Positions 6,967 through 28,449 of a stretch of 51,609 bases of DNA are shown here, piece by piece (within the stretch, counting starts at the first letter, position 1; each line of letters opens with the position of its first letter). Origin of the DNA: Verrucomicrobiota bacterium (GTDB taxonomy: Bacteria > Verrucomicrobiota > Verrucomicrobiia > Chthoniobacterales > UBA10450). The DNA is taken from positions 1-51,609 of the forward strand of contig QHNR01000006.1 of NCBI GenBank assembly GCA_003218475.1, given 5' to 3'. Under the pieces are notes generated by a model. That model searched no databases. It saw only the letters and a program-made list of their open reading frames with translations, and was not told the origin of the DNA. A program made the position numbers and the translations under genes.

Positions 6967-7902
6967 ATGATTAAGGTTGAAAATCTGACAAAACGTTACG
7001 CCGGCCAGCCTGCCATTCAGGATTTGAGTTTCGAGGTCAGCCGGGGCGAAATCATGGGATTTCTGGGGCCAAACGGCGCAGGTAAAACGACGACCATGCG
7101 CATTCTCGCTGGCTTTATGCCGCCTAGTTCGGGGCGCGCTACCGTCGCCGGATACGACGTTTTTGAGCAATCGCTCCAAGCGCGGGCGCACCTCGGCTAC
7201 ATGCCGGAAAATGTGCCGCTCTACAGCGACATGCGGGTCACGGAGTACCTCAATTATCGCGCGGCGCTCAAGGGAGTGCAGCATCGGCGCATTACGGAGC
7301 GTGTCGGCGATGTAGAGGAATTATGTGGTCTCAAGGACGTCAAAAAGAAGCTGATCGGCACTCTCTCCAAAGGCTATCGACAACGCGTCGGTCTGGCGGA
7401 CGCGCTGTTAGCAGAGCCTGACCTTCTCATTCTCGATGAACCCACGATCGGTCTCGATCCAAATCAAATCCGGCAGGTGCGCGAGCTGATCAAGAACCTG
7501 GGCAAGCACCACACAATTTTGCTTTCGACGCACATTTTGCCGGAGGTAGAGATGACATGCAGCCGGGTGATCATCATTCACAAGGGTCGAATTGAGGCGT
7601 GCGATACGCCGGATAATTTGCTCGGAAAAATCAGGCAAGCTGGCGGCGTAGTGCTTGAAGCAAAAGTCGGAAAGGATAATGCCGCGGAGGAACTAAAGAA
7701 GATTTCAGGTGTGCGAGACGTGGTTACCGACGGGGAGGATGAATGGAAGAGGTTTTCCCTGCGGGTGGAGTCGGGGGCAGATGTGCGCGAAGAGGTCTTT
7801 CGGCTGGCTGCCGATCGCCAATGGGCGGTGCGCGAATTAACCCAGCGCCGAGCGACGCTCGAGGATGTGTTCGTCGAGCTCACGCATCCCGACCAGATCT
7901 GA
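6967..7902 (+). CDS. ABC transporter ATP-binding protein (GldA-like)
   Basis: This is a 311-residue ABC-2 type ATPase. Walker A is GPNGAGKT (34-41), the signature is LSKGYRQ (133-139), Walker B is LLILDE (153-158), and the H-loop is STHIL. The C-terminal about 90 residues are the extra domain seen in GldA/NosF-like ATPases. It heads an operon with a permease (8424), a GldG-like protein (9183) and a DUF4340 protein (10690). In Bacteroidetes gliding systems GldA, GldF and GldG form one ABC complex, and in other phyla the same trio is found without gliding, substrate unknown. An S23 gene within an inverted repeat separates this gene from its permease; the first repeat unit starts 3 bases after the stop. 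Confidence 0.93.
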   Translation: MIKVENLTKRYAGQPAIQDLSFEVSRGEIMGFLGPNGAGKTTTMRILAGFMPPSSGRATVAGYDVFEQSLQARAHLGYMPENVPLYSDMRVTEYLNYRAALKGVQHRRITERVGDVEELCGLKDVKKKLIGTLSKGYRQRVGLADALLAEPDLLILDEPTIGLDPNQIRQVRELIKNLGKHHTILLSTHILPEVEMTCSRVIIIHKGRIEACDTPDNLLGKIRQAGGVVLEAKVGKDNAAEELKKISGVRDVVTDGEDEWKRFSLRVESGADVREEVFRLAADRQWAVRELTQRRATLEDVFVELTHPDQI

Positions 7903-7905
7903 ACG

Positions 7906-7944
7906 GGAGTAGCGGAGTGTGGAGTAATGGAGTGTTGGAGTTAT
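7906..7944 (+). repeat. Left arm of GGAGTNNT 8-bp-unit repeat (S23 element)
   Basis: Five consecutive units begin GGAGT (7906, 7914, 7921, 7929, 7937), spaced 7-8 bases apart. The segment 7921-7945 is the reverse complement of about 8386-8410 at 23 of 25 positions. The ATG of the S23 gene (7943-7945) lies at the inner end of the arm. Confidence 0.85.
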
Positions 7945-8431
7945 GAATTACGAAACTGAACTTCGGAACAAAAATCGCGGCTACATGAAACTGATTTTTT
8001 GGCAAAAAGCCATGGAGTTATTCGAATTCGTCTGGGCGATCGTTTTCACGGAGAACAAGATTGATTTCAAACTCCGCTCACAGCTAGCCGATGCGGCACA
8101 ATCAGTGTCCGCAAACATTTCCGAAGGCTACGGCCGACGCTCGCTTAACGAATATATTCAATTTTTGTATTACGCGCTCGGTTCATTGGCCGAGACAATG
8201 ACGCGCGCGATCGGTCTCAGCCAAACCAGGCAAATTACAGAAGCGCGTTTCCACGATGTGGACGTTCTGCACTATGAAGTCGAGAACCGTTTGCTGCACC
8301 TGCTTGATAAGCTGGAGCAAAAACGTGGAGACGAAAACTGGATAGCCCGTATTGCTGAAGATCCTGAGGAGTACGTCACTACTCCATCACTCCAACACTC
8401 CATCACTCCAGTGCTTCGCACCCATGCGTAA
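7943..8431 (+). CDS. Four-helix-bundle protein, S23 / 23S rRNA intervening-sequence family
   Basis: The 162-residue product carries the hallmark of the S23 (IVP) four-helix-bundle family: IFWQKAMELFEFVW (18-31), QLADAAQSVSANISEGYGRR (47-66), then EYIQFLYYALGSLAET (70-85). Family members were first found inside intervening sequences of 23S rRNA genes, and relatives occur with diversity-generating retroelements; the biochemical role is unknown. Here the gene sits outside rRNA, between the ATPase and permease genes of an ABC operon. Both ends are made of the 8-bp repeat: the ATG lies in the left arm, and residues 146-156 (TTPSLQHSITP) are encoded by the right arm. The stop overlaps the next gene's start by 8 bases, so the operon downstream stays translatable. 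A real start a few codons later (M15) is possible. Confidence 0.88.
   Translation: MNYETELRNKNRGYMKLIFWQKAMELFEFVWAIVFTENKIDFKLRSQLADAAQSVSANISEGYGRRSLNEYIQFLYYALGSLAETMTRAIGLSQTRQITEARFHDVDVLHYEVENRLLHLLDKLEQKRGDENWIARIAEDPEEYVTTPSLQHSITPVLRTHA
8378..8410 (-). repeat. Right arm of GGAGTNNT 8-bp-unit repeat (S23 element)
   Basis: Read on the minus strand this gives four consecutive GGAGTNNT units (on the plus strand ACTCCATC, ACTCCAAC, ACTCCATC, ACTCCAGT). It faces the arm at 7906-7944, and the two arms enclose the S23 gene almost exactly. It codes for the S23 C-terminus and ends 14 bases before the permease ATG. Confidence 0.85.
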
Positions 8432-9179
8432 ATTTTACACTCTGCTCTCGCGCGAGGTGCGCGGCTATTTCCATTCCCCGATAGCGTACATCGTACTGAT
8501 CTTTTTCCTCATCGTCAGCGGGATTGATTTTTACTTTCAGGTCTCCTTCATGAACCAGCGCCAGGTGCAGTACACGGTGCAGGAAGCGTTTTTCAATTCG
8601 GTCTTCTTTTGGTTCGCATTCGTTCTGATTTTTCCCCTGATCACGATGCGCCTGTTCGCCGAAGAATTTAAGCTCGGCACCATTGAGCCGCTTACTACTG
8701 CGCCGGTGCGCGACTGGCAGGTGGTACTCTCGAAGTTTTTCGGTGCACTGTTTTTTTACCTCATTCTCTGGATCCCGACACTGCTTTACTTTTGGATTTT
8801 TGCGAGAATAGCAAACCAGCCAGCCGCGCACTCTGCCGGAGCATACTTTGGCTCTTACTTGATGCTTTTATTGCTAGGAATGTTTTATCTCTCTATTGGC
8901 TGTCTCACGTCTGTTCTGACCAGGAACCAAATCATCGCTGCGGTTATTTCTTTCTGCGCAATTACCCTGTTATTTTTTCTCGGCCTGGTTCAGTTCATCC
9001 TTCTGGATGTTACTTCTACAACGCGCGATTTGCTGGGTTATTTCTCCGCGATCGAACACATGGGGACATTTTCTCGGGGCGTAATCGATACCCGGCCGAT
9101 CGTGCTCTATCTGAGCATAACCGTTGTGATGCTGACGCTCACATATCAGGCATTCCAATCCCGCAAATGGAGGCTCTAA
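8424..9179 (+). CDS. ABC transporter permease (GldF-like, ABC-2 family)
   Basis: The 251-residue integral membrane protein begins MRKFYTLLSREVRGYFHSPI, typical of ABC-2/GldF permeases. It shows about six hydrophobic helices, for example AYIVLIFFLIVSGIDFYF and LMLLLLGMFYLSIGC. The start at 8424 is chosen because the longer frame upstream only encodes the repeat arm. It pairs with the ATPase at 6967 and the GldG-like protein at 9183, 3 bases downstream. It overlaps the S23 stop by 8 bases, so translation may be coupled to that gene. The transported substrate is unknown. Confidence 0.92.
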   Translation: MRKFYTLLSREVRGYFHSPIAYIVLIFFLIVSGIDFYFQVSFMNQRQVQYTVQEAFFNSVFFWFAFVLIFPLITMRLFAEEFKLGTIEPLTTAPVRDWQVVLSKFFGALFFYLILWIPTLLYFWIFARIANQPAAHSAGAYFGSYLMLLLLGMFYLSIGCLTSVLTRNQIIAAVISFCAITLLFFLGLVQFILLDVTSTTRDLLGYFSAIEHMGTFSRGVIDTRPIVLYLSITVVMLTLTYQAFQSRKWRL

Positions 9180-13500: not shown

Positions 13501-13932
13501 ATGGATACATCTGTTAAAGCTCTAGAAGAAGCGATTTCAATTCGCCGACAAATTGATACTCTGGAAAGACGCCTTTCCTCAATTCTGGGAGGACGTGCTC
13601 TTCCGACGACGGCTACGACAACGCGCCCGGCGCGTGCCCGTTATTTTTCGCCTTCGACTCGGGCGAAGCTTTCGGCTGCCGCCAGAGCTCGTTGGGCAAG
13701 ACTAAGGGGCCCGGCTCCCACGACTCCTGCAAAGAAGAAAGGCCAGCTCACGCCTGCCGGACGAAGAAAGCTTTCCCAGCTAATGAAGGCTCGCTGGGCG
13801 GCGCGGAGGAAATCCGTGGGCAAGAAAGCAGCTCCTGCCAAGAAAAGAGGCACACTCACGCCTGCCGGGAGAAGGAAGCTTTCTGAGCTAATGAAAGCAC
13901 GTTGGGCAGCCAGAAGGAAAGCTGCGAAGTAG
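13501..13932 (+). CDS. Small basic repeat protein, probable nucleic-acid-binding
   Basis: The 143-residue, strongly cationic protein begins with a short helical segment (ALEEAISIRRQIDTLERRLS, possibly a coiled coil). It is followed by three copies of a basic helix motif: FSPSTRAKLSAAARARWA (49-66), LTPAGRRKLSQLMKARWAAR (83-102) and LTPAGRRKLSELMKARWAAR (119-138). The copies are joined by AAPAKK-type linkers like those of histone H1 tails. The R-x-K-[IL]-S...ARWA pattern is reminiscent of NUMOD3-like or plant-style DNA-binding repeats, but no exact family is claimed. It is monocistronic with a roughly 160-base AT-richer upstream region. A chromatin or RNA-binding role is inferred from composition only. 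Confidence 0.75.
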   Translation: MDTSVKALEEAISIRRQIDTLERRLSSILGGRALPTTATTTRPARARYFSPSTRAKLSAAARARWARLRGPAPTTPAKKKGQLTPAGRRKLSQLMKARWAARRKSVGKKAAPAKKRGTLTPAGRRKLSELMKARWAARRKAAK

Positions 13933-17837: not shown

Positions 17838-18659
17838 AAGCAGCTGGGTGCGCTTGTGCCCTTGGAAAACGCAGACCTCCTGAATTCCAAAACTCGCCAT
17901 TCTTTGCGCCAGGGTCGCAAATTTATCCCCAAGTTGCGCGTGTGAGTGCGCGTCGGACGCAGTGGTGAAAGGAATACCTTTCTCAATTGCGAGCTCAATG
18001 ATCCGGTTCCCTGGGTAAGATTCGTTCACCGGCTTGCGCCATCCGGCGGTGGAAAGCTCGATCGCGAGATTCTGCGCACGAATAAGATCAAGTGTTTCAT
18101 TGACTAACCCCCCGATCTCTGCACTCGGCCGATGACCATGGATTTTGATGAGATCGAGATGGGCGAGGCAATCGATCAAACCCGTAGCTGCTATTTCTCG
18201 GACACGACTAAAATAATTGGCGTACATCGCGTCGACATTGCGGCCTTCGAATTGCGTCGCTCCATCCGGCACGCTATCGAACATCTGATCGGGGCGATCG
18301 AGGAAATGAATCGAGCCCAAAACAAAATCAAGTTTGTCCCAGTGTTTCTCAATCCAGTTTCGGCCAGCCGCCGAGTGAATGGGATCGTTATCGAGCTCGA
18401 TGCCGGCGCGGATTCGCAAATCGGGGTTTCTTTCCCGCAAACAATCGATCTCATCGAAATCGATTCCGGCATGGTAACGATCGTGATCGGTAAAAGCGAT
18501 ATCGGTCAAACCTAAGCTACGTGCTGAATCCGCCCAGGGCTGAAGTAACGTCTGGGTGTACCGTTGCACCCGATGTCCCTGCGGATGCGTGTGATAGTCA
18601 GAGAACAGGAGTATTGGAGTATTGTAGTGTTGGCGTATTGGCAGCGCCTCAGAAACCAT
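17832..18659 (-). CDS. PHP-domain phosphatase, histidinol-phosphatase-like
   Basis: The 275-residue frame encodes a PHP-family metal-dependent phosphoesterase with SDYHTHPQG (H23, H25), AFTDHD, IRAGIELDN, VLGSIHFL, LAHLDLIKIHG and TTASDAHSH, in the order of the HisK/HisJ-type histidinol phosphatase fold. No other his gene is nearby, so the substrate is uncertain. The first about 18 residues before SDYH come from a repeat (18608-18690), including the only in-frame ATG at 18657-18659. The native start was probably a non-ATG codon near 18605, or the repeat now supplies the start. Confidence 0.85.
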   Translation of the reverse strand: MVSEALPIRQHYNTPILLFSDYHTHPQGHRVQRYTQTLLQPWADSARSLGLTDIAFTDHDRYHAGIDFDEIDCLRERNPDLRIRAGIELDNDPIHSAAGRNWIEKHWDKLDFVLGSIHFLDRPDQMFDSVPDGATQFEGRNVDAMYANYFSRVREIAATGLIDCLAHLDLIKIHGHRPSAEIGGLVNETLDLIRAQNLAIELSTAGWRKPVNESYPGNRIIELAIEKGIPFTTASDAHSHAQLGDKFATLAQRMASFGIQEVCVFQGHKRTQLLL

Positions 18660-18683
18660 TACTTTATTGCTCCATCACTCCAC
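18608..18683. repeat. GGAGTNNT 8-bp-unit inverted repeat, empty copy
   Basis: The left arm (18608-18640) has units GGAGTATT, GGAGTATT, GTAGTGTT and GGCGTATT. The facing right arm (about 18657-18683) reads on the minus strand as GGAGTGAT, GGAGCAAT and AAAGTAAT. This is the same unit and periodicity as the arms around the S23 gene at 7906-8410, with only a few bases between the arms. It overlaps the 5' end of the PHP gene. Confidence 0.75.
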
Positions 18684-28391: not shown

Positions 28392-28449
28392 GGAGGGGTG
28401 GAGTATCGGAGTATGAGGGATCACTTCGTCGCATCATTCCAGTACTCCA
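28392..28449. repeat. GGAGTNNT 8-bp-unit inverted repeat, empty copy
   Basis: The left arm (28392-28419) has units GGAGGGGT, GGAGTATC and GGAGTATG. The facing right arm (28432-28449) reads on the minus strand as GGAGTACT and GGAATGAT. Only about 12 bases separate the arms. It lies between lepB and the membrane protein gene and matches the arms of the S23 element. Confidence 0.7.

Follow-up and report, generated by a model that had tools for sequence, protein, structure and literature searches.

The S23 gene of the window (i.e., the whole stretch of 51,609 nt that was analysed, which is one entire contig, C39, of a genome of 3.16 Mb in 195 contigs that is 83% complete) and the facing tandem-repeat arms around it probably form a compact element, which has the arms as its ends, lies between genes and is usually placed in sense orientation behind the stop codon of the upstream gene. 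The best reading is that of an S23 element that resembles the 23S rRNA intervening sequences (IVS) but has copy-specific repeats as its ends and is located in protein operons. Its recurrence across several bacterial phyla suggests a small mobile element outside rRNA genes. The arms, their changing repeat unit, their recurrence around S23 genes, the agreement between arms and gene, and the presence, absence and deleted forms at shared junctions are all computational observations. The initial annotation, which had proposed a possible mobile element with cargo from the window alone, was right in outline; the scope is wider than it supposed, the element has no fixed unit, and mobility is putative.

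The link between S23 genes and arms joins three questions: the function of PF05635, the origin and role of rRNA IVS (as treated in the available parts of PMC4990558) and the source of heptamer repeats (likewise for PMC4679880). Given that most S23 genes carry both arms, the ends of the element can be drawn by computer. The questions are testable: sites in full, deleted and empty form are available from relatives, and sequenced plasmids of named cyanobacterial strains provide examples. A broader proposal, which is advanced tentatively and seems to us quite possible, is that S23 is the signature gene of widespread minimal mobile elements whose ends are a structure (i.e., facing tandem arms with a drifting unit), S23 being a helper that binds nucleic acid and reads the shape of the hairpin rather than its sequence. 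If this is true, this class of S23 elements would include 23S rRNA IVS and the cyanobacterial heptamer hairpins, as special cases or as relics. In the literature, titles and abstracts among the matches listed, drawn mostly from outside subscription journals, never tie S23 genes to facing tandem-repeat arms.

The S23 gene and its arms in the window

The S23 protein of the window matches PF05635 with an E-value of 8.4e-22 (77.8 bits against a curated cut-off of 33.8) and TIGR02436 with an E-value of 4.6e-21 (75.1 bits against a curated cut-off of 24), and therefore belongs to the S23 / 23S_rRNA_IVP family. Its GldA-like and GldF-like neighbours both score under the NCBIfam equivalog cut-offs, and the S23 stop codon overlaps the gldF start ATGCGTAA. 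The initial annotation had described a complete S23 gene between an ATPase and a permease gene, with inverted arms at both gene ends, the ATG lying in the 5' arm and the C-terminus being coded by the 3' arm. Both descriptions were borne out (Table 1).

The arms agree at 24 of 26 positions when 7920-7945 is compared with 8385-8410, which yields a score of 42, against a best facing-arm score of 29 among random intervals of the same size in the window (n=2902). The element measures 505 bp from arm to arm, and the period of its arms is 8 bp.

Table 1. Features of the window at the S23 locus and at two gene-free repeat pairs.
Feature	Position	Strand	Basis
S23 / 23S_rRNA_IVP four-helix-bundle gene, 162 aa	7943..8431	+	ORF and profile matches
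5' arm, GGAGTNNT tandem units, directly 3' of the gldA stop, contains the S23 start codon	7906..7945	+	
3' arm, ANNACTCC units facing the 5' arm, encodes the S23 C-terminal tail	8370..8410	+	
GldA-like ABC ATPase, upstream neighbour	6967..7902	+	
GldF-like ABC permease, downstream neighbour	8424..9179	+	
Short facing pair of GGAGTNNT unit, gene-free, degenerate	18608..18683	.	
Short facing pair of GGAGTNNT unit, gene-free, degenerate	28392..28449	.	

Arms of the same unit had also been reported empty at two other places of the window. Both pairs are present, though degenerate, and both were missed by the two de novo scans of the window. When GGAGTNNTGGAGTNNT is searched with at most two mismatches, the window holds 17 matches where 1.75 are expected, and none of 100 shuffles reaches 17. 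Genome-wide, the doubled unit with at most one mismatch has 28+30 matches, against 4+1 for the reversed control pattern, and this match list includes nine more short facing pairs outside the window. Thirteen genomic places of the unit were read: seven are gene-free facing pairs, one is the S23 pair of the window, and those remaining have repeats on one side only, are unclear or fall outside the stretch that was read.

A de novo scan for facing tandem pairs of any unit was applied, with a lowered threshold and four mostly-N pieces excluded, to 467 kb of the genome including the window. It found eight pairs at six places, against no pairs in the shuffled control. One place is the S23 pair, one brackets an ORF that is not S23-like, and the others are short and, judged by loop length, gene-free. 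At L254 6996-7852, CACAGAG repeats face each other around an ORF unlike S23, which indicates such arms are not exclusive to S23. Elsewhere in the window, at 13724-13920, a 108-bp near-duplicate lies in a basic, repeat-rich small ORF (13501-13932).

Facing arms at S23 loci in other genomes

Arms were detected by aligning the upstream flank of each gene with the reverse complement of its downstream flank. The score threshold of 27 is the 99th percentile of the first shifted-window null, and was fixed after that null and before the later sample. The survey comprised 79 S23 loci: 10 from the window's own genome, 29 from relatives, 27 from other genomes, 10 from plasmids and 3 from named records. 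The own genome has 12 PF05635 matches in about ten genes, two split genes being merged to give the 10 loci. PF05635 matches occur in 31 of 38 relatives, and one locus was tested in each of 29. The search of other genomes gave 35 matches at 30 loci, of which 28 were entered (L137 and L153 excluded); L146 was removed afterwards, being at the same place as L056. Three of the 13 plasmid records did not enter the count: H13, and H2 and H4, which nearly duplicate H1 and H3. The named records counted are L048, L052 and L054; L043-L046 are orthologs of the window site and were excluded, and the remaining ones recur among the other genomes or, for L056, among the plasmids.

A score of at least 27 was obtained at 57 of the 79 loci, with 22 below the threshold. 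By source, the passing loci are 6/10 in the own genome, 23/29 in relatives, 18/27 in other genomes, 7/10 on plasmids and 3/3 in named records. The other genomes divide into Omnitrophota (11/15), Stahlbacteria (5/6), a Calothrix genome (1/4), Bipolaricaulota (0/1) and a contig filed as Woesearchaeota (1/1), and the plasmids into cyanobacterial (6/9) and Gemmatimonadota (1/1). Across the phylum, PF05635 is matched in 100 of 145 genomes; of the 30 S23 loci in a later sample taken there, 22 passed, all 22 with tandem arms. Since the loci of the relatives and of the later sample are the best match per genome, these two samples lean to well-conserved S23 genes. Several sub-threshold loci have facing repeats by eye (e.g., L132, L121 and L122), and none are visible by eye at L142, L131 and L320.

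The threshold score is reached by 1-2% of shifted windows. The 99th percentile is 27 and the maximum 28 for the relatives (n=267), and 26 and 41, respectively, for the other genomes (n=270); in the later sample, 6 of 267 shifted windows score at least 27, with a maximum of 33. Mismatched flanks of different S23 loci (812 pairs) have a median of 18, a 95th percentile of 30, a 99th of 38.8 and a maximum of 49, which is above the other nulls because related elements share units. As a gene control, the flanks of PIN-domain genes in the same relatives never reached 27 (0/29, maximum 23; 29 of 30 loci, L220 excluded). Chance or a simple repeat expansion unrelated to S23 could be argued from the facing tandem arms that occur without S23, once around another ORF; given 0/29 for PIN controls against 23/29 for the S23 loci of relatives and 22/30 in the later sample, we find it extremely improbable. 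The search of genome and relatives called for by the initial annotation thus found facing arms to be usual around S23 genes, and its own counter-case, arms unrelated to S23 gene positions, failed.

The arm score alone is not specific, however, since 20 of 29 Y1-transposase loci (29 of 30, L290 excluded) also reach it. Tandemness separates S23 arms from the ends of Y1 transposases: a value of at least 0.75 is found in 52 of the 57 passing S23 loci, against 3 of 20 Y1-transposase ends and 3.3% of random pieces.

The period of the arms is 7 bp, the length of the cyanobacterial STRR heptamers, in 87 of 114 arms, 8 in 17, 6 in 9 and 9 in 1 (7 in 37 of 44 arms of the later sample), but 8 at the window copy. 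Other S23 copies of the own genome have arm units such as AAGCGNTG, CTGCTC/CATGAT, CTCGTC, GATTTAGC and GGATTGC. One point of the initial annotation needs correction: GGAGTNNT is the unit of this lineage only, and the units of other copies differ and are mostly of 7 bp. The 5' arm is the G-rich one in 47 loci versus 9, and in 19 versus 3 in the later sample. Given that a facing pair is identical from either strand, this reflects a polarity of the hairpin rather than of the gene.

Arm similarity follows S23 similarity. For 57 pairs of S23 genes (65 loci, arm score of at least 24) with at least 60% identity and no flank similarity, mean arm similarity is 0.51, in a set whose pairs share loci and are thus not independent. 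In 2000 permutations of the arm labels of these pairs, the mean is 0.28 and the maximum 0.38, and none reaches 0.51. Where the flanks are dissimilar, the median arm similarity increases with S23 identity, from 0.25 (<45%) through 0.29 (45-55%) and 0.33 (55-65%) to 0.53 (>65%), although some pairs, e.g., L003 with L118, may be ancient same-site pairs with diverged flanks. The agreement of the two arms within an element (0.94) is unused, because arms picked by mutual alignment inflate it. Similar S23 genes thus have similar arms even where their flanks show no similarity, so that the arms seem to travel with the gene.

These results bear on a reading in which S23 is an ordinary accessory gene, lost or kept normally, and slippage and hairpin-templated copying extend its arms in place, perhaps because S23 binds or protects the hairpins. 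Many high-identity S23 pairs are same-site orthologs, the unit and copy number of the arms vary and short facing pairs exist without S23, all of which agree with such growth. However, we regard growth in place as unlikely, because the arm units go with S23 even at loci whose flanks are dissimilar and because the arms start at the stop codon of the upstream gene.

Genomic setting and the same junctions in relatives

Neighbour genes were defined by a simple rule, as the longest ORFs. An upstream gene was identified at 77 loci, and at 67 of them it is co-directional with S23; the two neighbours both lie in the S23 sense at 53 loci versus both opposite at 5 (p 3.5e-11). PIN controls show 10 versus 8, from which S23 differs (Fisher p 0.0015), and Y1 genes 11 versus 4, from which it does not clearly differ (Fisher p 0.079). 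The later sample has a weaker sense bias (14 versus 4), with a divergent upstream gene in 7 of 30. Where the upstream gene is co-directional and the arms pass, the upstream stop and the start of the 5' arm are at most 30 bp apart in 36 of 46 loci (median 4.5 bp), and in 8 of 11 in the later sample.

Host junctions include gldA-gldF, gap-pgk, the position before an ATP synthase gene (L050), cas6-cas4 and the 3' side of tRNA-Sec. On plasmid pANA02 of Anabaena sp. 90 (L060), at 1516-1884, an S23 gene with long heptamer runs is flanked by cas6 and cas4 in a type I-D CRISPR operon. In contig C7 of the own genome (L006), an S23 element at 710-1262 is placed directly 3' of the tRNA-Sec gene, and just upstream of it a separate CAACGCTC run faces GTTGGACG-like units. 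The S23 protein of L050, a 3.3-kb contig filed under Woesearchaeota, shares 84% identity with an Omnitrophota S23 over 77 residues. Archaeal spread was considered and rejected for L050: the neighbouring F-type ATP synthase alpha/beta family gene reads as bacterial, hence the contig is probably mis-binned and no claim is made for archaea.

The states of three junctions were read by eye. Among 22 same-genus gldA-gldF loci, 2 have S23, 13 a short spacer (in 2 of them containing just two GGAGTNNT-like units), 6 tandem-repeat runs without S23 and 1 another state. A protein search of 35 genomes of the genus, including the own genome, found the S23 gene in 4, each time at this junction; it is thus not the case that relatives always carry the gene here, which the initial annotation had named as evidence against its view. 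Four named assemblies of the window's lineage have the gldA-gldF S23 with GGAGTNNT arms, one of them being identical to a congener in all three proteins. At L067, L071 and L075 the gldA-gldF junction is clean, and by eye a mini-ORF stop overlaps the gldF start like the S23 stop of the window.

At gap-pgk, 29 of 30 loci were readable. Nine are full and share one kind of 6-bp arm; PF05635 was confirmed at five of these, and the others were called by length and start. Two are internally deleted forms, which keep both arms and the S23 start, one of them also the S23 end. The others comprise 8 one-armed or short sites, 1 gene-free GGAGTNNT pair, 2 with an unrelated gene and 7 clean junctions. Seven Nostoc plasmid traM junctions were read: 2 full, 1 gene-free hairpin, 2 clean and 2 with other sequence. 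The gene-free hairpin has related heptamers, its flanks are 96% and 98% identical to those of a full site, and no gene is annotated there.

These differences are gains and losses whose direction is often unclear, and several absences look like decay, which as losses would not demonstrate insertion. The filled sites are spread over the gldA/gldF tree, in part on branches with weak support. A tree-conflict test of S23 against this tree, as a sign of independent insertion at gldA-gldF, gave an indecisive AU p of 0.047 for protein and 0.159 for DNA, for a group named after seeing the identities. Many orthologous S23 loci stay at the same site within the genus, like settled genes, and S23 copies within one genome are at most 57% identical at the loci examined, so there has been no recent burst. 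The sole near-identical pair met (99.7%; L058 and L189) is on plasmids 1 and 2 of Calothrix brevissima, where both copies share the same neighbours, which points to a larger shared segment and not to movement of the element alone.

The proposal of a mobile element with cargo thus stands in part. The arms recur around S23, the element is present or absent at the same junctions, deleted forms keep both arms, and the arms accompany the gene at loci whose flanks are dissimilar. As for movement itself, no target-site duplication was recognised by eye at the gldA-gldF, gap-pgk and Nostoc traM junctions, and no transposase was found inside the S23 element, the gene between the arms being S23, unlike in an insertion sequence.

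Known systems and a proposed mechanism

According to the available passages of PMC4990558, the ends of S23-containing IVS in 23S rRNA are paired, and such IVS have been suggested to be mobile elements or transposition remnants. The Coxiella IVS described there is 428-444 nt long and has a 28-bp terminal stem with cuts mapped within it. The S23 elements resemble these IVS in having an S23 ORF in a segment with pairing ends, a sporadic distribution and a similar size (505 bp in the window). They differ in that the window element lies in a protein operon with gldA- and gldF-like genes, not in 23S rRNA, and in that its ends are copy-specific short tandem repeats. The predicted RNA fold of 7890-8425 has the arms as its outer stem (z -5.4, with none of 100 shuffles as good), i.e., base-paired ends that enclose the ORF, as in 23S rRNA IVS.

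One alternative places the element at the RNA level: RNase III would cut the arms, paired within the operon transcript, and free the S23 mRNA, or the stem would hide a GGAG ribosome site, with S23 controlling its own translation. The predicted fold, the mostly sense orientation of S23 and the cuts mapped in the Coxiella stem are consistent with it. However, DNA inverted repeats would fold identically, and the arm mismatches have no clear excess of G-U-compatible changes (58 versus 48, p 0.38), a wobble test which lends no support to RNA-level pair selection of the arms. We consider this alternative doubtful.

The facing heptamers also have precedents. STRR of cyanobacteria are reportedly the subject of Mazel 1990, STRR in rnpB are said to be treated in Vioque 1997, and small dispersed repeats reportedly in Elhai 2008. 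In the P6b region of the cyanobacterial tRNA-Leu intron, degenerate heptanucleotides face each other and fold into a hairpin, as described in the available passages of PMC3488679, which make no mention of an S23 gene. The likeness lies in the degenerate facing heptamers, by which several cyanobacterial plasmid S23 genes are bracketed. Heptamer direct repeats are reported in Beggiatoaceae, and heptamers are said to be common in bacteria, in PMC4679880, the main text of which, as far as available, is without the term S23.

REPINs are inverted doublets proposed to be moved by RAYTs (PMC3116915, in the parts available). They share with S23 elements a small size, an inverted pair, an intergenic position and a link to a small gene family. 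The REP ends are conserved palindromes, whereas those of S23 elements are tandem repeats of changing unit around a gene that is not a transposase; no conserved REP sequence is common to the S23 copies and to the flanks of RAYT-type genes. A REPIN-like arrangement, in which Y1 (RAYT-type) transposases of the host move both the short hairpins and the S23 elements in trans, would agree with the Y1_Tnp matches, which occur in 8 of the 9 genomes with S23 and number as many as 23 in a single genome, and with the movement proposed for REPINs. Against this, there is no conserved sequence common to S23 arms across elements, and one genome (G043) has five S23 matches and zero Y1 matches. The Y1_Tnp genes studied (L267-L296) have inverted ends that are mostly palindromic and tandem in just 3 of 20. 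Given this difference in arm type, Y1/RAYT was rejected as the driver of S23 elements, and the arrangement appears very unlikely.

Under the preferred reading of a compact S23 element with the arms as its ends, gene and arms would move or be copied as one unit. The element would ride in host transcripts, with S23 expressed from the host operon, and the arms would fold into a hairpin. The S23 protein, an Avd relative with a four-helix bundle, may act as a helper that binds this hairpin. Host enzymes would then cut and join the element, while slippage and hairpin-templated copying could keep both arms alike.

Avd of diversity-generating retroelements is a protein related to S23 (PF22296; PMC10053308, in the parts available), and one bracketed S23 protein matches PF22296 (bAvd-like) with an E-value of 2.8e-6, under the model cut-off. 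Unlike in the Avd system, 8 of the 9 S23 genomes tested have no RVT_1 match; matches occur only in the Calothrix genome, and reverse transcriptase help was thus rejected. The 83% complete genome G000 has no RVT_1 match, in contrast to a diversity-generating retroelement with Avd. Rfam at the gathering threshold gave no match in 7 loci, and PADLOC none for 3 S23 proteins.

The S23 core has an omega of 0.03-0.10 in the 5 of 10 ortholog pairs (five orthologs) with computable dS, which is near saturation (1.4-3.3); dS is saturated in the other five pairs, including all four with the window's copy, so that these values exclude the window copy. The arm-coded tail of S23 has higher omega ratios than the core, on 17 codons. 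Among the sequence relatives of S23, 2GSC and 2RLD are solved structures.
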